Source: Pirellulales bacterium (GTDB lineage: Bacteria; Planctomycetota; Planctomycetia; Pirellulales; JADZDJ01). From it: 38,212 nucleotides of DNA. Under the pieces are notes generated by a model that ran no database searches, had not been told where the DNA came from, and saw only the letters and a program-made list of their open reading frames with translations. Shown here one piece after another: positions 7,924 to 36,078 of the stretch. Location of the stretch: NCBI GenBank assembly GCA_020851115.1, contig JADZDJ010000268.1, positions 1 to 38,212 of the forward strand, written 5' to 3'. Position 1 is the first letter of the stretch; the number at the start of each line of letters is the position of its first letter. The translations under genes and the position numbers were made by a program.

Positions 7924-8907
7924 ATGAGTACCGCCACCGACGAATTTTCTACGATTCCCGCCACCTGGGCGCGACGGCACCTGCTCGATGTTGAAAGTCT
8001 GTCGGCTGAGGAAATCAAACTGATTCTCGATACCGCCGAACAGTTCAAAGACGCAACGGACGGCTGCAAGCACAAGCTTCCCGTGCTGCAAGGCAAGACG
8101 CTGGCCAATTTGTTTTTCGAGAATTCGACCCGCACGCGCACAAGCTTCTCGCTGGCCATGCGCAGGCTCGGAGGCGACACTGTCGATTTTACAGCCTCTA
8201 GCAGCAGCCTTTCAAAAGGCGAAACATTTATCGACACGGCGAAGAACATCGAGGCGATGAACGTCGATGTGGTGTGCGTTCGCCACAGCACGCCGGGAAC
8301 GCCCAAATTGCTGTCAGAGAACCTCGACTGCGGCGTAATCAATGCTGGGGATGGCCCGCATGAGCATCCGACCCAAGGCCTGCTCGACATGATGACGATT
8401 CGTGAGAGTCGCGGACACATCGAAGGGTTGACGGTGGCGCTTGTCGGCGATATCGCCCACAGCCGCACGGCCCGCAGCAACATCTGGGGTCTGCAAAAAC
8501 TTGGCGCCCATGTCATCGTCTGTGGGCCAGCGACGCTCGTTTCGCCTCTCTGGGAGCAACTTGGCGTCGAAGTTTCGCACAATCTCGACGAGATCCTGCC
8601 GCGCTGCGACGTGTTGAATTTGCTCCGCATTCAATTTGAACGCCAAACCACGCGGCCGTTTCCGTCGGTGCGCGAGTACGCTCTGCTTTACGCGATGAAT
8701 CGAGAGCGGCTGACGCGGGCAAAACGCGACATTTTGATTCTCGCCCCCGGCCCGATCAATCGTGGCGTCGAGGTGACCACCGATGTAGCCGATGGAACGC
8801 ATTCGTTGATTCTCAATCAAGTTACCAATGGGCTCGCGGTCAGAATGGCGGTGCTGTGGCTTGTCTGCGGGTCCAATGCGGAATGTGGAATGAGGAATGG
8901 GGAATAA
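7924..8907 (+). CDS. pyrB: Aspartate carbamoyltransferase catalytic subunit
   Basis: Joins carbamoyl phosphate and aspartate, the committed step of pyrimidine synthesis. The 327-residue protein has the carbamoyl-phosphate signature [12 protein letters not shown], the mobile-loop segment [20 protein letters not shown], the [12 protein letters not shown] box and [16 protein letters not shown], all as expected. The conserved end [16 protein letters not shown] is followed by an extra tail, [11 protein letters not shown], encoded by a simple-sequence tract. No regulatory subunit pyrI is present. pyrC starts 55 bases downstream. Some bacterial enzymes of this kind form a complex with dihydroorotase, which the neighbourhood allows but does not prove. 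Confidence 0.95.
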
Positions 8908-8950
8908 GAACTCTAGCCATATACTCATCATTCCCTATTCCCTTTTCCCA
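8880..8950. repeat. Inverted GGAATG / CATTCC simple-sequence pair at pyrB-pyrC border
   Basis: The left arm, 8880-8906, is made of GGAATG-like units (GGAATGTGGAATGAGGAATG). The right arm, about 8927-8950, carries the complement (CATTCCCTATTCCC). They can pair imperfectly around a 20-base spacer. The left arm encodes the last residues of PyrB and contains its stop codon; the right arm ends just before pyrC. Related wording occurs inside ade. It may act as an intercistronic hairpin. Confidence 0.65.
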
Positions 8951-17093: not shown

Positions 17094-17114
17094 GGGTTCA
17101 GGGTTCAGGGTTCA
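17094..17114. repeat. Three tandem GGGTTCA units upstream of coaD
   Basis: Three perfect heptamers GGGTTCA in a row begin 19 bases before the coaD start codon (coaD is on the minus strand). They are simple sequence unlike the surrounding GC-rich DNA. They could affect the coaD 5' region or simply be one of the dispersed tracts found at gene borders here. Confidence 0.75.
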
Positions 17115-17177
17115 GAAAATGAGGCACTCGTGGATGACTCTTGGCGGCATGCCACCGACTGAGACACTCGCGGATCG

Positions 17178-22402: not shown

Positions 22403-23374
22403 ATGAACTGGAGCGAGTATCGAGTTTGCGTGACGGGGGGGGCAGGTTTCTTGGGCCGCGCTGTCTGTCGCGAATTATTGGCGCGCGGTGTTGCCGCGGA
22501 AAAACTGACTGTCCCCCGACGTGCCAGGTACGATTTGACTCACGAAGACGCGGTACAGCGGTTCTTTCGCGATTTCCAACCCGATGTGATCATCCATTTG
22601 GCAGCCGAAGTTGGTGGCATCGGCGCAAATATGGTCCAGCCCGGCCGTTTCTTCTTTGCCAACATGGCCATGGGGCTGCATCTGATCGAACATGCGCGGA
22701 TCGCTAGCATCCGCAAGTTTGTGCAGGTCGGCACGGTATGCGCCTATCCAAAACTTGCCCCCATCCCATTTCGAGAAGATGATCTTTGGAACGGCTATCC
22801 CGAGGAAACCAACGCACCGTATGGCGTGGCCAAGAAAGCGCTGTTCGTAATGCTCGATGCCTATCACCGGCAATATGGCTTGGCAAGTTCAGTGGTGGTG
22901 CCCGTCAATCTTTACGGCCCCGGCGATAATTTTGATCCAGCAATCAGCCACGTCATTCCAGCCCTGATTCGCAAATGCGAAGCGGCGCGAGTCAGCGGCG
23001 AGCGGCAAATCATGTGCTGGGGAACTGGCACTGCCAGCCGCGAGTTCTTATACGTGGATGATGCCGCCCGCGGCATTGTCGCGGCAGCCGAAACGATGGA
23101 ATCGCCAACCCCAATCAATCTGGGTGCCGGCAAAGAGATCGCGATTGCGGATCTCGTGAAGCTGATTGCCAAGCTGTGCGATTTCAACGGCGACATTCGC
23201 TGGGATCCTTCCCGCCCCGATGGGCAGCCTCGTCGCTGTATTGATACGAGCCTAGCAAAAAGGATACTCGGCTGGCAGGCAACCATGCCGCTCGACGAGG
23301 GACTGCGCCGCACGATTGCGTATTGGCGCGAACAAAGCCCCATCAGTCAGCAGCCACCCATTCCTCAGCCGTGA
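22403..23374 (+). CDS. NAD-dependent epimerase, GDP-L-fucose synthase-like
   Basis: A 323-residue extended SDR enzyme. It has the Rossmann motif TGGAGFLG and LAAEVGGIGANM. The active-site region is VGTVCAYPKLAPIPFREDDL, and the catalytic Tyr-Lys pair is in NAPYGVAKKAL. Then come PVNLYGPGDNFDP and the C-terminal DTSLAKRILGW. These fit the GDP-L-fucose synthase (WcaG/Fcl) group, which turns GDP-4-keto-6-deoxymannose into GDP-fucose for cell-surface glycans, but GMD or glycosyltransferase genes are not nearby. ATG 22403 is chosen because a GGAAG sits at good spacing; GTG 22394 and ATG 22397 are alternatives. The last 32 bases overlap the convergent EF-hand gene. Confidence 0.85.
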   Translation: MNWSEYRVCVTGGAGFLGRAVCRELLARGVAAEKLTVPRRARYDLTHEDAVQRFFRDFQPDVIIHLAAEVGGIGANMVQPGRFFFANMAMGLHLIEHARIASIRKFVQVGTVCAYPKLAPIPFREDDLWNGYPEETNAPYGVAKKALFVMLDAYHRQYGLASSVVVPVNLYGPGDNFDPAISHVIPALIRKCEAARVSGERQIMCWGTGTASREFLYVDDAARGIVAAAETMESPTPINLGAGKEIAIADLVKLIAKLCDFNGDIRWDPSRPDGQPRRCIDTSLAKRILGWQATMPLDEGLRRTIAYWREQSPISQQPPIPQP

Positions 23375-26110: not shown

Positions 26111-27814
<1,704 letters not shown>

Positions 27815-27870: not shown

Positions 27871-29082
27871 ATGCCCGACTTTGCTTACACCGCCCGCGAC
27901 AACACCGGCCGCAAGGTCAGTGGCACGATTGCTGCGCCGAACCGGCGCGATGTGCTGTCGTCGCTTGATAAAAAGTCGCTGTTTCCGGTCGAAGTCTACG
28001 AAGCCGACGCAGGCGGCATGATGCGCGCCGTTCGCGGTAAACGGGTTAAGGCCCAGTTGATGGCCACAACCTATGCGCAGCTTGCCGATCTGCTGCGCAG
28101 CGGCGTGCCATTGTTGCGATCGTTGGAAGTGATCAAGAATCAATCGTCGCAACCGGCATTGAAAGAAGTATTGGAAAAAGTCTATGCCGCCGTCGAAGAG
28201 GGCGTGACACTCGCCGATGCCATGCAGGCGCAACCGCGGGCGTTCAGCGAAATGGCCATCAGCATGGTTCGCGCCGGCGGTGAAGGCGGTTTCTTGGAAG
28301 ACGCGTTGGCCCGAGTTGCGCAATTTACCGAACAGCAGCAAGAGCTGAAATCGCGTACCACTGGGGCGCTCGCCTACCCGATCTTTTTGGCTGTCGTTGG
28401 GGTCACCGTAGTCACGGTCCTGATCGTATTCTTCGTGCCAAAGTTCAAAGACCTGTTCGCTCGACTAGAAGAGCGCGGCGAATTGCCCACGATCACCAAT
28501 TTCTTGCTTGGCACAAGCGAGGTGCTGGCAAAATGGGGCTGGCTGGTGGTGATCGTTCTCGTCGCGTTGACAATGTACGCAAGAAACTTGCTTGCGACCG
28601 AAGCGGGCCGCTGTTGGAGCGACCGTCTGAAGATTCGGCTACCGGTTTTGGGTATGGTATTTTTGAATCTCGCGGTGTCGCGTTTTTGTCGTGTACTGGG
28701 GACGCTGCTCCACAACGGCGTGCCCATTTTGCGATCGTTGGAGATTAGCAGCGAAGCGGCCGGCAATCGCGTGTTGTCGGCGGCTATTAACGAAGCTGGC
28801 GAAAACTTGTCGTCGGGGCAGGCCCTGGCCAAGCCGCTTGCCGCCTCAGGCTATTTTCCGCCCGAAGTAGTCGAAATGATCGCTGTAGCCGAGGAATCGA
28901 ACACACTGGAATCGGTGCTCACGAACATTGCCGATTCGCTCGAACGCCGCACTTTCCGTCGTTTGGATTTGTTAGTCCGATTGATTGAGCCGATGATGTT
29001 GCTACTGTTGGCCGGGGCGGTGCTGGTCGTGGTGATCGCGCTGCTCCTGCCGGTCCTGAAGATGAGCACAACGATTGGCTAG
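27871..29082 (+). CDS. gspF: Type II secretion inner-membrane platform protein
   Basis: The polytopic platform protein contacted by GspE. The 403 residues carry two T2SSF domains: about 70-190 (ATTYAQLADLLRSGVPLLRSLEV, MVRAGGEGGFLEDALARVA) and about 270-395 (FCRVLGTLLHNGVPILRSLEI, MIAVAEESNTLESVLTNIA). There are three membrane segments near 168-190, 220-240 and 370-400. The N-terminal DFAYTARDNTGRKVSGTI is typical. The spacing to gspG is about 116 bases, which is larger than later gaps and contains a short simple-sequence tract (GGTCTGGTC-like). Confidence 0.95.
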   Translation: MPDFAYTARDNTGRKVSGTIAAPNRRDVLSSLDKKSLFPVEVYEADAGGMMRAVRGKRVKAQLMATTYAQLADLLRSGVPLLRSLEVIKNQSSQPALKEVLEKVYAAVEEGVTLADAMQAQPRAFSEMAISMVRAGGEGGFLEDALARVAQFTEQQQELKSRTTGALAYPIFLAVVGVTVVTVLIVFFVPKFKDLFARLEERGELPTITNFLLGTSEVLAKWGWLVVIVLVALTMYARNLLATEAGRCWSDRLKIRLPVLGMVFLNLAVSRFCRVLGTLLHNGVPILRSLEISSEAAGNRVLSAAINEAGENLSSGQALAKPLAASGYFPPEVVEMIAVAEESNTLESVLTNIADSLERRTFRRLDLLVRLIEPMMLLLLAGAVLVVVIALLLPVLKMSTTIG

Positions 29083-29198: not shown

Positions 29199-29615
29199 AT
29201 GAATCGTCGTTCTCGCCGCCAAGTTCGCACGGCTTTTACTTTGATGGAAGTGTTGCTCGTGCTCGTGATCTTGGTGGTTCTCGGATCGTTGGCCGTGGGC
29301 ATGTTTACCGGCACGCAGAAAAAGGCGCTCGAACGCACAGCTCAGGTACAGGTCGATTCTTATGACCATGCGGCGCAGCGCTACCAAATCGAAATGTTCT
29401 CGTTCCCTCCTTCGCTGCAAGACCTGCGAGTCAATCCGAGTGGCTCTCCAAATTGGTCTGGTCCATACATTGACAAGGACGTTCCGGCCGATCCGTGGGG
29501 AAATCCGTATCAGTACGATCCGCAAGGCCCACGACACAACAACGAAAAACCGGACATCTGGTCATACGGTCCCGACGGCTCGCCGGGAACGCAAGACGAC
29601 ATTTACAACAAATAG
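29199..29615 (+). CDS. gspG: Major pseudopilin
   Basis: Main subunit of the T2SS pseudopilus, 138 residues. The start ATG 29199 has GGAGG five bases upstream. The prepilin motif is RTA|FTLMEVLLVLVILVVL: the conserved Glu at +5 is present, but the usual Gly at -1 is Ala. The C-terminal YIDKDVPADPWGNPYQY and GSPGTQDDI segments form the calcium-binding region typical of GspG. It is followed 6 bases later by the GspH-like gene. Processing would need a prepilin peptidase encoded elsewhere. Confidence 0.93.
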   Translation: MNRRSRRQVRTAFTLMEVLLVLVILVVLGSLAVGMFTGTQKKALERTAQVQVDSYDHAAQRYQIEMFSFPPSLQDLRVNPSGSPNWSGPYIDKDVPADPWGNPYQYDPQGPRHNNEKPDIWSYGPDGSPGTQDDIYNK

Positions 29616-29621
29616 TTCGTC

Positions 29622-30257
29622 ATGCCACGGCCGCTTTCATTTCGCCACGCTCACAGCGGCTTCACGTTGATGGAGTTGCTGCTGGTGTTGGCATTGCTGG
29701 CGGTGCTGGGCGCAACTGCTTGGCCGTTAGCGACCAACGCATTTGCCAGCGTGAAGTTGCGGAATGCCGCCCAGCAAGTGCAAGCCTGTTGGGATAAGGC
29801 GCGCGTGCAAGCGATTTCAAACGGCTTACCGCACGTATTTCGATTCGGCTCCGACGCCGCCGACTATTCGGTCGCGCCCTGGTATGATGAAAATGCGGCG
29901 ATCGAAACGACGACACCGATCGCGGCAAACACATTCACACCATCGACAACGCCGCCCCAAAATCCAACCCACGATGGAACGGCGACAACCAACCGCCCCA
30001 AACTTCCCGACGGAATGACCTTTGTCGGCATCGAGCGCAGCGGCGAAACTCGCAGCTTTGCCGCCGATGAGCAACTCTCGATTGCTGGAATTGCCGCCAC
30101 CGCCCTGCCGGTCGTCTTTTATCCTGATGGAACCTCGTCCGACGCCGCATTGACGATCACGGACGGCAAAGGCCGTTATATCACGGTCAACCTCCGCGGC
30201 CTGACCGGGATCACGCGCATCGGCGAAATCACCGCTGGGCCGGAGGTGGCAAAATGA
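29622..30257 (+). CDS. gspH: Minor pseudopilin, GspH/FimT-like
   Basis: A 211-residue minor pseudopilin. A 13-residue leader precedes the cleavage site HSG|FTLMELLLVLALLAVLG, with Glu at +5. The body has RNAAQQVQACWDKARVQAI and a beta-rich end VVFYPDGTSSDAALTIT, which match the GspH / FimT fold. A Thr/Pro-rich loop (about residues 95-125) is longer than in E. coli GspH. Its stop overlaps the next start by four bases (ATGA), indicating translational coupling. Confidence 0.88.
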   Translation: MPRPLSFRHAHSGFTLMELLLVLALLAVLGATAWPLATNAFASVKLRNAAQQVQACWDKARVQAISNGLPHVFRFGSDAADYSVAPWYDENAAIETTTPIAANTFTPSTTPPQNPTHDGTATTNRPKLPDGMTFVGIERSGETRSFAADEQLSIAGIAATALPVVFYPDGTSSDAALTITDGKGRYITVNLRGLTGITRIGEITAGPEVAK

Positions 30258-30889
30258 TTGCGAAACACCAGGATTCAGAGTCGCGGAGTCGAGAGTCAAG
30301 AGTTAAAACTCAGGGCCAACCGCGAGATGTGGTCATTTACGCATTCCCCCGTTTACACTTTCAGTCACTCAGGTTCGGCCTGCCGCCTGCCGACTGCCGC
30401 CAGCACGCAGCGCGCGGCCTGACCCTCCTCGAAGTCATCCTCTCGCTCGCCATCCTCGCCGGTTCGGTCGCCGTCCTCGGCGAGCTGATGCGAACCGGAA
30501 TGCTCAGCGCATCGGATGCTCGCGACACCACGCGCGCGGAGATATACGCATCTAGCATCATGTCGCAAGTCGTGGCCGGAGCATTGCCGTTGAGTTCCGT
30601 GTCGAACGCATCGGTTTCCGATGATCCGAATTTCGTCTATTCGATGACAACCGGTCCCGTTTCCGCCGGCCAGCAGGGTTTACTACAAGTGCAAGTGACC
30701 GTCACGCGCGCCATCGCACCGCAAAAACGGCCCGTCGAATTTTCTCTGACTCGCTGGATCGTCGACCCAGAAATGGAATTCAATCTCGCATCTCAAGCCC
30801 AGGCAAATACAGATGCAGCCGCCCAAGAAAAGGCTGCCCAGGAGCAACAACAACAACAGAATTCCTCACGGAATTTATCGCCGCAGTGA
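30254..30889 (+). CDS. gspI: Minor pseudopilin, GspI-like, with a long leader
   Basis: A 211-residue protein with the prepilin-type helix HAARG|LTLLEVILSLAILAGSVAVLG. The cleavage site lies after residue 55, far longer than a normal 5-15 residue leader. The leader is encoded by simple-sequence DNA (GAGTC-like units). The start ATG overlaps the gspH stop (ATGA); a GTG further in would give a 30-residue leader, but no better start is evident. The C-terminal tail is Gln-rich (about residues 190-211). GspI-like by position and size; identity rests on order rather than strong motifs. Confidence 0.82.
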   Translation: MIAKHQDSESRSRESRVKTQGQPRDVVIYAFPRLHFQSLRFGLPPADCRQHAARGLTLLEVILSLAILAGSVAVLGELMRTGMLSASDARDTTRAEIYASSIMSQVVAGALPLSSVSNASVSDDPNFVYSMTTGPVSAGQQGLLQVQVTVTRAIAPQKRPVEFSLTRWIVDPEMEFNLASQAQANTDAAAQEKAAQEQQQQQNSSRNLSPQ

Positions 30890-30897
30890 GGAATTTC

Positions 30898-32049
30898 ATG
30901 AACCATACACCGTCAGAATTTACGAGTCAGAGGTCACGAGTATTGAGCGATCCTTCACCGGCTTACCTCTCCATCCATGTACCCCTTCCATTCCGCCAGC
31001 CGCGCGGCTTCACGTTACTCGAAGTACTGCTTGCTCTGGGGCTTACCGCCGTGGTGCTGGTGCTAGTCGGCAGCGCAGTTCACACCACACTTCGCACGAT
31101 CGACATCGGAAGGCGACGAACGGAACGCGAACAGCTAGCCCGAGCCATACTGCACCGCATTGCCGACGACTTGCGGGCCGTCATGCGCTACGAACCGTTC
31201 GACGATAGCGGATTGAAGTCCAGCGGCGGCCGAGCGAGCAGCGGTAGCGGAGGCTCTGCGGACTCCGGCGGATCGTCCGGACAATCGAGCGGCAGCAGCA
31301 AATCATCATCGCAAGATTCGAGTTCACCGTCCGATAACCAGAGCCAGAGCGATGAAACAGCAAGTCAGACCGCCACCATGCCGATGGCCGGTATTTACGG
31401 TTATCAAGACTCCGTGCAAATCGACATCACCCGCATTCCGCGCTTGGATGAATATCTCTACACCAATACCGTTACCGCTCCGCAGCGACGAGGAGACGTG
31501 CGTACGGTAACCTATTCTGTGGGCAATTCACAGGGCGGGATCACAACTGCGGCGGGCACGGCAATTGGCGCGCCCCCCCTAGCCACCAACGCTTCGGGTG
31601 GACTGTTGCGAACCGAAGCTGACCGCGCCACGTTTCTTTGGCAACTTCAAGGGGGTGCCAGAGCAGTCAGCCAGACGCAAACGGTGTTGGCTTCAGAAGT
31701 CACCGCACTCGATTTTCGCTATTTCGACGGAGCACAATGGGTCACTCGGTGGGACTCCACGTCCATGAATGGCCTGCCGCGGGCCGTCGAGATTTTGATT
31801 TATTTGGCTGACGATCCATCCGATCTTCGCGCACTGTCGGTCACCAGCATCGCAACCCCAAAGCTGTTGCCGAGTAATCCCAACAACCTTTATCGAATGG
31901 TGGTCCATCTGCCGGCTGGTCTTCCGTTACCTGCAGTGCAACCCGTCAGTGAGGATGCGTCGCAGCAAGCCACCAGCGACGGCAGCTCTTCAACCAATAG
32001 CAGCACAGGAACATTGAGCGGCGCCTCTCAAAATGGAGGCCGGCAATGA
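30898..32049 (+). CDS. gspJ: Minor pseudopilin, GspJ-like, with Ser-rich insert
   Basis: A 383-residue protein (GspJ is usually about 200). The prepilin site is QPRG|FTLLEVLLALGLTAVVLVLVG after a 37-residue leader. Residues about 103-163 are an inserted low-complexity Ser/Gly/Gln-rich stretch. The remainder (TRIPRLDEYLY, VTALDFRYFDGAQWVTRWDS, LPRAVEILIYLAD) matches GspJ. The start is set at ATG 30898, because AGGA lies 5 bases upstream; GTG 30886, overlapping the gspI stop, is an alternative. The gene overlaps gspK by four bases. Confidence 0.85.
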   Translation: MNHTPSEFTSQRSRVLSDPSPAYLSIHVPLPFRQPRGFTLLEVLLALGLTAVVLVLVGSAVHTTLRTIDIGRRRTEREQLARAILHRIADDLRAVMRYEPFDDSGLKSSGGRASSGSGGSADSGGSSGQSSGSSKSSSQDSSSPSDNQSQSDETASQTATMPMAGIYGYQDSVQIDITRIPRLDEYLYTNTVTAPQRRGDVRTVTYSVGNSQGGITTAAGTAIGAPPLATNASGGLLRTEADRATFLWQLQGGARAVSQTQTVLASEVTALDFRYFDGAQWVTRWDSTSMNGLPRAVEILIYLADDPSDLRALSVTSIATPKLLPSNPNNLYRMVVHLPAGLPLPAVQPVSEDASQQATSDGSSSTNSSTGTLSGASQNGGRQ

Positions 32050-34307
32050 GAGGAATCAGGGATCCGAGTTTAAGATTCAGGGTTTGGCACAGCGCAGAAT
32101 CCGGTTGCCATCGCAAGCCCATCGTTCATCGTTCATCGTTTGCCGTTCGTTGCTCATCATTCCGGCGGCCGCCGGCCGCCGACTGCCTTCCGCCCACTCA
32201 CCACGGCATGGTGCTCATCATCGTACTGGTGGCTGTCGCCATGTTGAGCTTGGCAGCCTATACGTTCACGGAATTGATGTTGACCGAGCACAAAGCCGCG
32301 CGGCTGGTGACGCGCGATGCGCAAGCCAGAGCGCTGACCGAATCGGCAGCCGAGATGGCCCGCCTCTATTTGGGACAATCGGCCCAAGCCTTGCAGGAAT
32401 CGGGCGGTGTCTACAGCAACGTCGCTCGATTTCAAGGGGTGCAAGTCGTGCCGGTCATCGATGACGGTGTACCACAAAATCGAGGCCGATTTTCAATCGT
32501 CGCGCCGGCCATCGAGAACGGCCAAGTGGCGGGGGTGCGGTTCGGCCTCGAAAATGAATCGGCCCGATTGAACGTCAATACGCTCCTGTATCTCGAACAG
32601 CAGACCCGTGCGCAAACAAGTACTGGTCTAGCCAGCGCCGTTGGAGCAGCCATCGGCACAACCGGCGCTGGACCGAATTCGCTCGGAGCAAGCGGTGCAT
32701 TAGGCAGCGGACAGCGAAACAGCGGGTTATCCACCAATGCTACCAGCGGCGGACAATCTCCAATCAGTGGTCAACAAAATGGAGCCAGCAATAGCTCCAA
32801 CGACGATTCCAGCCAATCGACCGGCAACCCGCGCGATTTGCTAATGGCCCTGCCAGCAATGTCGGAAGAAATCGCCGACGCGATTTTGGATTGGATCGAC
32901 GCAGACGACGAACCGCGCGAATTTGGAGCTGAGATCGATTACTATTCAGGACTCGGCTATGCTCCCAAGAACGGCCCGCTCGATACGATCGAAGAACTTT
33001 TGCTCGTTCGCGGTGTCAGCCCGCAGTTGCTGTTTGGCGCCGATGCAAATCGCAATGGAATCGTCGATCCCTCTGAGCAGCCGCACGCCATGCTCGCCCA
33101 GGTCTCCGATGGCGATGCCGAAGTGGACCGCGGTTGGGCACCCTATCTGACCCTTTATTCCAAAGAAGCGAATGTCCGCGCGGACGGCACGCCGCGGATC
33201 GATTTGAATAATAGCGATCTGCAAGCGCTCCATGAGCAACTCGACGCAGCGTTGAATTCTGAATGGGCTAATTTCATCGTCGCCTACCGGCAATTTGGTC
33301 CATCGGCCAGTGCTGGAGGCAATAGCGACCAAGGCAATAGCGGCGGAGGCAGCCGGAATGGGAATGGCGGCGGAAACCGCGCTTCCCGTGTAGAACCCAC
33401 TGCGGGCAACGGTCCGTTCCGGTTAGCTGCCCTGCTGCAGCCTCAGCCTGGTGGAGCGGGAGGCGGAGGTCAGCCGCAGCCTGGAGGTAATGGCAATTTC
33501 GGCGGAGGAAACTCGCCGAGGGGCAATCCTGGCGGCGGACAAGGCGGCGGCAGATCCTCCGGTGGAAATGGCGGGGGCCGCGGCGGAGGCGTAGGAGGGG
33601 TAGGACCAGTTGGCGGCGGTGCGTCACAGCAGCTCGAAGAAATTTCAGCCAGCAGCATCGATATCGACTTTACTCAAGAGGCGAAGTACAGCTTTAACCA
33701 AGTTCTCGACTTAATCGGCGTCCAAGTTCGCTTTCAACTGCCGTCGGGTCAAGGTTCGAGCAGTTCATCTGGATCGAGCGGTTCGAGCAACGCGAATTCA
33801 CAGACCAAACAGGTGTTGCTGAAATCTCCCTTTCCCGATGAACCTGCCGCCGCTGAAGGCTATTTGCCATTGCTAATGGACACGGTTACCGTCAATCCAG
33901 CGTTGACGATTCCCGGCCGCATTAACATCAATCAGGCCTCCAGGGTAGTGTTGCAAGGCATTCCCGGCATGGCGGGGCAAACGATCGACGCGATTTTGTC
34001 GAATCGCACGCCCGAGGCACCCAAGGACAAACCGAATCGCGTTCACGAAACCTGGCTATACATCGAGGGGATCGTCGATCTGGACACGATGCGCGGTATG
34101 ACACCGTTTATCACCGGTGGCGGCAACGTTTACCGAGCACAAATTGTCGGCTATTTCGACCAAATGGGGCCTGCCCATCGCATCGAAGCGATCATCGACG
34201 CCTCGAATGCTACCAACGCCGTCCCGCGGATAGTATTCTGGAGAGATATCAGCAACCTCGGCCGCGGCTTCGAGCTAAATGTCTTAGGTATCGGGCCAAC
34301 GCAGTGA
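32046..34307 (+). CDS. gspK: Minor pseudopilin, GspK-like, greatly enlarged
   Basis: A 753-residue protein, while GspK is usually 300-350. After a 54-residue leader encoded by simple-sequence DNA comes THHG|MVLIIVLVAVAMLSLAAY. As in other GspK proteins, Glu+5 is absent. GspK-type blocks follow: ARALTESAAEMARLYL, ADAILDWIDADDEPR, GPLDTIEELLLVRGVSPQLL. Near residues 625-650 is the helix-hairpin-helix-like RININQASRVVLQGIPGM. Residues about 197-263 and 421-527 are low-complexity inserts (Ser/Asn/Gln, then very Gly-rich), with a shorter Ser-rich run near 565. It should cap the pseudopilus tip with GspI and GspJ. Confidence 0.85.
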   Translation: MRGIRDPSLRFRVWHSAESGCHRKPIVHRSSFAVRCSSFRRPPAADCLPPTHHGMVLIIVLVAVAMLSLAAYTFTELMLTEHKAARLVTRDAQARALTESAAEMARLYLGQSAQALQESGGVYSNVARFQGVQVVPVIDDGVPQNRGRFSIVAPAIENGQVAGVRFGLENESARLNVNTLLYLEQQTRAQTSTGLASAVGAAIGTTGAGPNSLGASGALGSGQRNSGLSTNATSGGQSPISGQQNGASNSSNDDSSQSTGNPRDLLMALPAMSEEIADAILDWIDADDEPREFGAEIDYYSGLGYAPKNGPLDTIEELLLVRGVSPQLLFGADANRNGIVDPSEQPHAMLAQVSDGDAEVDRGWAPYLTLYSKEANVRADGTPRIDLNNSDLQALHEQLDAALNSEWANFIVAYRQFGPSASAGGNSDQGNSGGGSRNGNGGGNRASRVEPTAGNGPFRLAALLQPQPGGAGGGGQPQPGGNGNFGGGNSPRGNPGGGQGGGRSSGGNGGGRGGGVGGVGPVGGGASQQLEEISASSIDIDFTQEAKYSFNQVLDLIGVQVRFQLPSGQGSSSSSGSSGSSNANSQTKQVLLKSPFPDEPAAAEGYLPLLMDTVTVNPALTIPGRININQASRVVLQGIPGMAGQTIDAILSNRTPEAPKDKPNRVHETWLYIEGIVDLDTMRGMTPFITGGGNVYRAQIVGYFDQMGPAHRIEAIIDASNATNAVPRIVFWRDISNLGRGFELNVLGIGPTQ

Positions 34308-34434
34308 GCAACCGAAACGATGAATGCTCAATGATAAATGCTAAACGTTAGCGTCATTTGCAATTCACGCCCCATGCAGTTTGTTTGCCTTACTTCCGTT
34401 CATGATTGATCGTTTATCGTTTTGCAATTAGCCA
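34308..34434 (+). repeat. Simple-sequence tract in gspK-gspL gap
   Basis: This 127-base gap contains ATGAATGCTCAATGATAAATGC-like wording near 34320 and its complement (GATTGATCGTTTATCG) near 34403-34420, plus the small palindrome GCTAAACGTTAGC. It breaks the otherwise tight gene spacing of the operon. No promoter was recognised. Confidence 0.45.
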
Positions 34435-36078
34435 ATGCCTCGCCTGATAGCACTAGAATGGGACGACCTCGAGGCACGTGTGGCCGTGGCCGAAGTCCGC
34501 CGAGGCAACATGACGGTCGAACAGGCGTTTGCCGTCGCATTGCCCGCAGCGCTGGCTCCCGGTGGGACGGCAGAACTGATTTCCGCCAGCGGTGCGCACG
34601 ATTTGGGAGCCATTGGTCGGCGCATCGGCGAGGCATTGCTCGCCCGGGGCGTACGAAAGAGCAAAACTCTAGTTGCCGTCGGCCGAGCGAATATCGAACT
34701 CAAGAATCTCACGCTGCCGCCATCGCCAGCCGACGAATTGCCAGAACTTGTGCGATTCCAGGCCGAACGCGAATTCAATGCGCTGGCCGACAACTGGCCG
34801 CTCGATTTCATCCCGCAGCCCAGTGCGGCCAACGAGCCACAAACAGTACTCGCCGCTGCGATCTCTCCCGAACTCGTCGCCGAAATCGAAGTCACGTGCC
34901 AGGCGGCTAATCTGACGCCCGAACGTCTGATTCTGCGCCCTTGCGCGGCTGCTTCGCTTCTTTCGCGAGTACATCCGGCCGAAATGAACAAGCTGCGGCT
35001 GCTCGTCGATCTTCTCAATGACGAAGCCGATCTGACCGTGATGGCAGGAGATGCTGTCGTTTTCCTGCGCACCGCCAGGCTGCCGCACGATGTATTGGAA
35101 TCGGACCCGATTCGCGCCCTCCTCCCCGAAATTCGCCGCACGATTGCCGCCGTGCAGAACCGCTTTCAAGGCCAGCATGTCTCCGAAATCTTTCTGTGCG
35201 GCGCAAGAGACGACGAAGAATTGCTCGTGCGTGAAATCGGCCGCGATTTGAACCTGCCGGCGGAGTTGTTTAATCCGCTGACTTGCTGCACGCTGTCGCC
35301 CGAACTGCAACGAGCCTTACCCACCCATCCCAGCCGCTTCACGCCGCTGGTTGGCATGTTGCTCGATGTAGCGCCCGGTGGCGCGGCAGTGATCGACTTT
35401 CTCAACCCCCGGCGAAAGCCGCAGCGGCGGTCGCAGCGACGGAAATACGCAGTTCCCGCCATTGCCGCTGCCGTGTTGCTATTGGCCGGGGTATTGACGA
35501 TTTGGTTTAAGCTGTATTCGCTCAACTCGGAAATCGATGAATTGAACCAGCAGATTCGTAATCTCGACGCCGCCGTCAAAGTAGCCAAAGAAACGCAAAT
35601 AAAAGTCGAGCAAGTTAAAAGCTGGTTGGCTGGTGATGTCATTTGGCTCGATGAACTGGTGTTGCTCTCGGAAAAAGTGCCTTCGAATCAAGATGTTGTG
35701 CTGACGGAAATCAAAACCTCCCTGCCAAATCGTGCGATATTGGGAACGAATCAGGCGATATCCGGAGTGCGTGCGACGGCCGAGATTAACGGTTTGGCAA
35801 AAGACCGCGGAATTTGGATCAATTTACCAAGCGCCTTGAAGGATCCCGCACATCATGCCAGCGTGCCCGTGCCGAAAGCAGATGCCAAGGAAGGGTCCGA
35901 CAAGTATCCGTTTCCGTTTAGCGCCAAAGTCAACATTACCGAGGAAACCAAGTCGGCAAGAGTTCGTCGCGCGACGCCCGGCTTCAGATCGGGCATTTCC
36001 ATCACCCCCCAAGCCGCTCCTTCCGCCGCGAAACAGCCAAGCATTCAAGCAACGAAGCCGGAGGACAAGGCCATATGA
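34435..36078 (+). CDS. GspL-position protein: PilM-like domain fused to PilN-like domain
   Basis: A 547-residue protein. Residues about 1-315 form an actin-like PilM/GspL cytoplasmic domain (IALEWDDLEARVAVAE, LRLLVDLLNDEADLTVMAG, HVSEIFLCGARDDEEL, FTPLVGMLLD). The basic run KPQRRSQRRK then leads to one membrane segment (about 339-358, VPAIAAAVLLLAGVLTIWF) and a coiled coil (about 362-395). The periplasmic PilN-like part follows. In type IV pili these are separate PilM and PilN proteins; in T2SS the equivalent is GspL. The C-terminal Ala/Pro/Lys tail is probably disordered. The stop overlaps the next start by four bases (ATGA). Confidence 0.85.
   Translation: MPRLIALEWDDLEARVAVAEVRRGNMTVEQAFAVALPAALAPGGTAELISASGAHDLGAIGRRIGEALLARGVRKSKTLVAVGRANIELKNLTLPPSPADELPELVRFQAEREFNALADNWPLDFIPQPSAANEPQTVLAAAISPELVAEIEVTCQAANLTPERLILRPCAAASLLSRVHPAEMNKLRLLVDLLNDEADLTVMAGDAVVFLRTARLPHDVLESDPIRALLPEIRRTIAAVQNRFQGQHVSEIFLCGARDDEELLVREIGRDLNLPAELFNPLTCCTLSPELQRALPTHPSRFTPLVGMLLDVAPGGAAVIDFLNPRRKPQRRSQRRKYAVPAIAAAVLLLAGVLTIWFKLYSLNSEIDELNQQIRNLDAAVKVAKETQIKVEQVKSWLAGDVIWLDELVLLSEKVPSNQDVVLTEIKTSLPNRAILGTNQAISGVRATAEINGLAKDRGIWINLPSALKDPAHHASVPVPKADAKEGSDKYPFPFSAKVNITEETKSARVRRATPGFRSGISITPQAAPSAAKQPSIQATKPEDKAI

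Follow-up and report, generated by a model that had tools for sequence, protein, structure and literature searches.

Why do three successive minor pseudopilins of one type II secretion operon begin with leaders of 37 to 55 residues, when GspG and GspH of the same locus have leaders of 12 and 13? The question is raised by a stretch of 38,212 nucleotides (the window; contig JADZDJ010000268.1, positions 1 to 38,212) from the assembly of a Pirellulales bacterium (GCA_020851115.1; 5.2 Mb in 304 contigs), in which gspI (30254–30889), gspJ (30898–32049) and gspK (32046–34307) follow one another on the forward strand. The analysis described here indicates that the leaders of GspI, GspJ and GspK are probably translated N-terminal extensions derived from degenerate heptanucleotide-repeat DNA, tolerated because they are cut off, and that they are probably neutral, without a part in targeting.

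Heptanucleotide repeats in the leaders

An earlier, sequence-only reading of this DNA had given leader lengths of about 55, 37 and 54 residues for GspI, GspJ and GspK, and these lengths are borne out. The GspI leader spans 30254–30418 (55 aa; predicted cleavage before Leu at 30419), the GspJ leader 30898–31008 (37 aa from ATG 30898, or 41 aa if GTG 30886 is used) and the GspK leader 32046–32207 (54 aa counting the final Gly; predicted mature start 32208), whereas the short leaders used for comparison cover 29199–29234 in gspG (29199–29615; 12 aa) and 29622–29660 in gspH (29622–30257; 13 aa), on the same strand. Pooled over the three long leaders, identity at a lag of 7 bp is 0.432, a value reached by none of 2000 dinucleotide shuffles (mean 0.256, sd 0.022), and it is raised also at lags 14 (0.389) and 21 (0.349). 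The DNA of the mature H, I, J and K parts has no such periodicity (0.22–0.26 at lag 7), including the mature parts of GspI (30419–30889), GspJ (31009–32049) and GspK (32208–34307). Taken singly, GspI and GspK are clear cases (0/2000 shuffles each); GspJ is a borderline, weak one.

The lag-7 scan places arrays at 30286–30312 and 30374–30418 in the GspI leader and at 32120–32157 (CATCGTT three times) and 32162–32204 in the GspK leader, with no array above the scan threshold in the GspJ leader; Tandem Repeats Finder reports period 7 at 30378–30401, 32120–32140 and 32162–32181. The leader arrays contain at most three perfect units (CATCGTT in GspK). The extra DNA had been described as simple repeated words, and so it is: with their 7-bp period, words such as CATCGTT and the 'GAGTC-like' ones make up heptanucleotide arrays. 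In period the leaders agree with heptanucleotide repeats (GspJ at the border), and in position they depart from them, the arrays in gspI and gspK falling within predicted reading frames. An untranslated counterpart lies in the junction between gspK and the downstream gspL-like gene, where arrays at 34316–34350 and 34399–34436 end at the next gene's start codon.

Two other identities for this DNA were considered and rejected. Special RNA structure was not found in the window leaders (z 0.5 to 1.25, with the 3' ends of I and K slightly trimmed). A search of the source genome with leaders I and K, J not being used, returned, besides the leaders themselves, matches of only 22–31 bases (two for K, three for I), so that neither is a copy of a dispersed element. 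Leaders I and K thus have neither the full-length copies elsewhere nor the hairpin of elements like the Rickettsia palindromic elements (RPE), which are repeat DNA retained in translated genes, or the repetitive extragenic palindromic (REP) elements.

Arrays were also sought in 42 stretches of the source genome (387,252 bases with the window counted in); of the 41 stretches that were fetched, 37 had been picked around prepilin genes. The lag-7 scan found 46, of which 37 lie outside codon-scored gene cores, as output by a simple codon-usage caller, and 9 inside; other lags (4, 5, 8, 10, 11 and 13) gave 3–6 outside and 3–11 inside. Arrays are present in 16 of the 91 co-directional gaps of 60–300 bp, and in these gaps the purine fraction passes from 0.63 at the upstream gene to 0.36 (pyrimidine-rich) at the downstream gene, whereas the profile of the other 75 gaps is nearly flat. 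When downstream genes were classed by eye, all eight prepilin-like ones had the array in frame with a start before it and none after (for one of them, L070 10358, the hydrophobic N-terminus is the sole prepilin-like feature), and none of the 11 other genes had an in-frame array. In the second pilin operon of the same genome (L070, G000:C266:24000-36000), three prepilins that carry the motif have arrays in their leaders, and the same operon in two genomes of the same family (L071 and L072) has array-bearing leaders too, with different units.

Start sites of the long leaders

The gspI start forms an ATGA overlap with the gspH stop, with the Shine-Dalgarno sequence GGAGGTG (30242–30248, within the end of gspH) 5 nt upstream. 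Similarly, the gspK start overlaps the gspJ stop as ATGA, 6 nt behind GGAGG (32035–32039, within the end of gspJ), and the ATG of gspJ stands 8 nt past the GspI stop with AGGA 5 nt upstream. Between 32046 and the GspK cleavage site there is no further in-frame ATG, GTG or TTG. The only internal in-frame start of GspI is GTG 30329 (leader 30 aa), which has no Shine-Dalgarno match, and the alternative GTG 30886 of GspJ has none either.

The coupled arrangement recurs among relatives from the order Pirellulales, in which the same operon was located in 36 stretches and the second pilin operon in 22, with two named loci in addition. GspI starts were counted in the 24 of 38 loci with contiguous G, H and I genes (the window and 23 relatives); the other 14 were dropped because order-based gene labels fail where one gene is uncalled, as seen in L044. 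In 21 of these 24 loci the distance of the GspI start from the GspH stop lies between -25 and +12, 17 of the 21 having a Shine-Dalgarno match of at least four bases, and the distance is exactly -4 in 17/24 (16/23 without the window). The GspJ start is coupled in 19/22 loci (16 with Shine-Dalgarno) and the GspK start in 11/15 (10). In the nine relative loci of this contiguous set that are nearest by GspF identity, the GspI start is at -4 throughout, while the leader varies in length from 7 to 73 aa; the two loci that follow in identity start at +3 and +157.

Prepilins and control genes in related genomes

Arrays near cleavage sites were counted in 265 genes that have a strict prepilin motif, those of the source genome among them. 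The count leaves out genes less than 250 bp from a locus end and genes without Glu/Asp5 (hence GspK), as well as L032, which shares a contig with L041; L070–L072 were left out of the table for the first operon. The counts are not independent, since some genomes give two loci and G016 and G032 are near-identical. Within the 200 bp before the cleavage site the scan detected 60 arrays at lag 7, compared with 1, 2, 7, 1, 5 and 2 at lags 4, 5, 8, 10, 11 and 13. A single lag-7 array fell in the mature parts, of which the initial 400 bp were scanned. For the window group, lag 8 gave two arrays, equal to lag 7, with GspK uncounted. A lag-7 array lies before the site in 41 of the 265 genes, and in 28 of the 41 it is inside the frame with no start between array and site.

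As controls, 34 GspF and 17 GspL-like genes with a conserved first Met were used, which held 25 arrays in the 200 bp before that Met and one in the 200 bp that begin the gene. Reading from the nearest array, the frame stays open as far as the cleavage site in 36/41 prepilins and as far as the Met in 5/15 GspF and GspL-like genes (Fisher p = 1.5e-4, a value that is too good because the sequences are related). Arrays thus tend to end where function begins, at the start codon in GspF and GspL-like genes and at the cleavage site in prepilins. An assembly artefact is unlikely, as arrays occur in stretches L060 (2) and L141 (4) of G025, a one-contig genome; of the remaining six stretches from one-contig genomes, L059 has one array and L048, L063, L129, L130 and L137 have none. 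We infer that the long leaders are translated in the cell, which is supported because the starts are coupled and led by Shine-Dalgarno sequences, GspK has no alternative start, and prepilin arrays are more often open than those of GspF and GspL-like genes.

Origin of the leaders and alternative explanations

These observations are probably best explained by a mechanism in which some general process, slippage perhaps, would make heptanucleotide arrays form and turn over at the gene junctions of the source genome and its relatives. Ahead of genes that cannot do without their N-terminus (GspF, GspL-like and others), arrays would survive only outside the reading frame. In a prepilin, the part from the start codon to the cleavage site would be removed by prepilin peptidase on the cytoplasmic side, and an array could be allowed in frame if it had no in-frame stop and left the cleavage site intact; behind a coupled start it would persist only if the product were unharmed. 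According to two published accounts, the leader of a class III signal stays cytoplasmic and is removed after its last Gly or Ala (PMC10191384, PMC4471445), which would make a prepilin leader a place where such arrays can persist. GspI, GspJ and GspK each have the Gly/Ala site and hydrophobic helix of such a signal, with Glu5 in I and J, and the genome encodes Peptidase_A24 (prepilin peptidase family) proteins. The N_methyl match is over its cut-off in GspJ, below it in GspI (18.2 vs 21.2 bits) and absent in GspK because GspK has no Glu5. We infer that the leaders are cleaved and neutral in the cell.

The overlapping, Shine-Dalgarno-led start would be kept because it couples translation to the preceding gene, and repeat growth would therefore fall in the leader. 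The sequence-only reading had proposed neutral growth of repeats that were once intergenic. Neutral growth is supported; an intergenic past is unlikely for GspI, whose -4 start is shared by 16/23 relatives with leaders of 7–73 aa, so that its repeats would have grown ahead of the cleavage site and behind a start codon that was already there. Part of the GspK leader may be of intergenic origin, the GspK start of the nearest relatives (G001, G002 and G005) standing 13–15 bp after the GspJ stop. The comparison of leaders between relatives, which that reading had suggested, shows that lengths and content vary and that the overlapping GspI start is conserved.

Several observations weigh against this interpretation. 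The GspJ lag-7 value is reached by 75/2000 shuffles of a slightly trimmed leader and by 5/500 of the full one. The codon usage of the I and K leaders is not coding-like, their codon-scored cores extending upstream only as far as the cleavage sites (the core of GspJ begins 324 bp inside the mature part); such usage fits recent repeat DNA, but untranslated DNA as well. GspJ has an internal TTG at 30943 (leader 22 aa) with GAGGT 8 nt upstream. Among relatives, the 23 coupled leaders of at least 22 aa outside the window are periodic when pooled (lag 7 0.327; 0/300 shuffles), and only three of them are strongly so alone (L034 I, L036 J and L037 H), most long leaders of relatives not being arrays. 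The relatedness behind the Fisher value counts here as well, and arrays are not enriched at prepilins (41/265 vs 15/51 GspF and GspL-like genes). Arrays being no commoner before prepilins, the leader looks tolerant of them and not targeted by them.

Some of these points would suit an account in which the repeats are untranslated, translation starting at an internal or rare codon near the cleavage site and the array being leader RNA that is open by chance. The non-coding codon usage and the GspJ TTG speak for it, as do relatives in which the likely start follows several of the arrays: among the 41 array-bearing prepilins, 13 are not of the inside-the-frame kind. However, GspK offers no such codon, the single candidate in GspI is a GTG that lacks a Shine-Dalgarno match, and chance openness fits poorly with the difference between prepilins and controls, which makes this account unlikely. 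The claim that the long leaders are really translated is supported by the coupled starts and by GspK but is unproven, and GspJ has a usable internal TTG. It is also quite improbable that the long leaders have a function, whether in targeting, slower membrane insertion or the ratio of minor pseudopilins. Their occurrence in three successive minor pseudopilins and not in GspG or GspH would suit a function, as would their positive net charge (+5, +2 and +7 for I, J and K, the last without its final Gly). Yet length and sequence vary among relatives, many of which have 7–20 aa at the same gene, and arrays are equally present at the junctions of other genes. An effect on targeting, which had been put forward for these leaders, finds no support because leaders vary in length and content even between members of a single genus (32 aa for GspI in G001 and 14 aa in G002). 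The leaders have no strongly hydrophobic stretch (top 15-residue mean 0.63, K without its last Gly). Least probable by far is that the arrays are contingency switches, in which one 7-bp unit gained or lost would shift the frame and turn GspI or GspK off or on. A unit of 7 is not a multiple of three and CATCGTT is repeated three times perfectly in the GspK leader, but the arrays are short and degenerate, lacking the long perfect tandem array of phase-variable loci.

Relation to known systems

Heptanucleotide repeats of Xanthomonas (GGGAATC) and Nostoc are likewise 7-bp tandem arrays, mainly intergenic, and those of Xanthomonas also occur as inverted pairs (70 and 75 cases); they have one consensus unit per genome and mostly avoid genes, whereas here units vary by junction and arrays lie inside prepilin leaders (PMC4692102). 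The TAACTGA arrays of Beggiatoaceae resemble the present ones in being heptamer arrays immediately 5' of start codons. The account of them reports slippage as a proposed origin of heptamers and notes that an insertion might be tolerated at either terminus of a protein, but the forward TAACTGA arrays contain stops, unlike the leader arrays, which are stop-free in frame (PMC4679880). Type IVb and other long-leader prepilins share the class III signal peptide of variable length (PMC4471445, PMC10191384); their leaders are of 6–26 aa in examples and ~15–30 aa in type IVb, compared with 37–55 aa from repeat DNA here (PMC4471445). The reading-frame tandem repeats of Borgs are also repeat DNA retained in translated genes, with the difference that their in-gene units are multiples of three and remain part of the protein (PMC9879509), whereas here the unit is 7 bp long and the encoded peptide would, by prediction, be cut off.

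Heptanucleotide repeats, inverted pairs included, and long leaders are therefore already known. Apparently new are the repeat-derived leaders of 37–55 aa and the way in which prepilins differ from other genes: in the open-access literature we found neither an account of repeat-derived prepilin leaders nor a joint treatment of heptanucleotide repeats and planctomycetes. A testable rule would be that repeat DNA with a 7-bp unit, usually excluded from genes, may be translated where the peptide is discarded. Prepilin leaders would then serve as natural records of repeat growth and as a means of checking annotated start codons in planctomycetes, and would amount to a natural experiment on the leader length that a prepilin peptidase accepts.

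Other repeats and remaining features

Across 1.02 Mb, 38 neighbouring array pairs have an inverted arm match of 15.1, compared with 9.6 when arms are swapped between junctions (0/500 permutations reach the observed match), and four picked pairs fold as long hairpins (L041:4335-4473, L145:3885-3994, L036:4134-4258 and L070:1871-2003; z -9.2 to -4.3). The leader pairs of the window score 5 and 4 and are too degenerate to show arm matching. As a tentative and rather doubtful extension, Pirellulales genomes might carry a class of junction element built of two inverted heptanucleotide arrays, its unit junction-specific yet arm-matched and the element renewed by some form of copying, which would be translated chiefly in the cut-off leaders of prepilins.

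Other repeat kinds, too, land in prepilin leaders. Coupled leaders from H to K span 4–88 aa in loci with contiguous G, H and I genes, and the 73-aa GspI leader of G006 (L037:7485-7704, minus strand) contains a dispersed repeat of ~97 bp, found at no fewer than ~40 places of that genome including itself; the matches fall on either strand and reach 100% identity (80 rows, with 40 of 690 candidates scored). This repeat is a palindrome, since it matches its own reverse strand at 94%, and in copies and palindromy the leader resembles RPE- and REP-like elements. By eye, the gspK start of the same operon encodes the peptide of this repeat. In G003, a junction sequence occurs at six places of one pilin operon including itself, four of them in leaders; its array core matches more places, with at least 39 rows, on other contigs and several per array, among the 40 of 100 candidates scored. 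In L127 (G003:C33), nearly identical leader sequence stands before each of four pseudopilin genes in a row, a pattern suggestive of copying within the operon.

The rest of the type II secretion operon in the window comprises gspE (26111–27814), gspF (27871–29082) and a PilM/GspL-like gene (34435–36078), all on the forward strand, the last with a PilM_2 match below its cut-off. GspJ and GspK are supported by T2SSJ and T2SSK matches over their cut-offs; GspI has no GspI family match, its name following from position and prepilin motif alone. Elsewhere in the window, a purine-rich and a pyrimidine-rich heptamer array at 8875–8949 flank the point where one gene ends and another begins, three perfect GGGTTCA units stand at 17094–17115 just upstream of a minus-strand gene, and at 23330–23374 the C-terminus of an epimerase-like protein (SPISQQPPIPQP) appears, by eye, to be repeat-derived.

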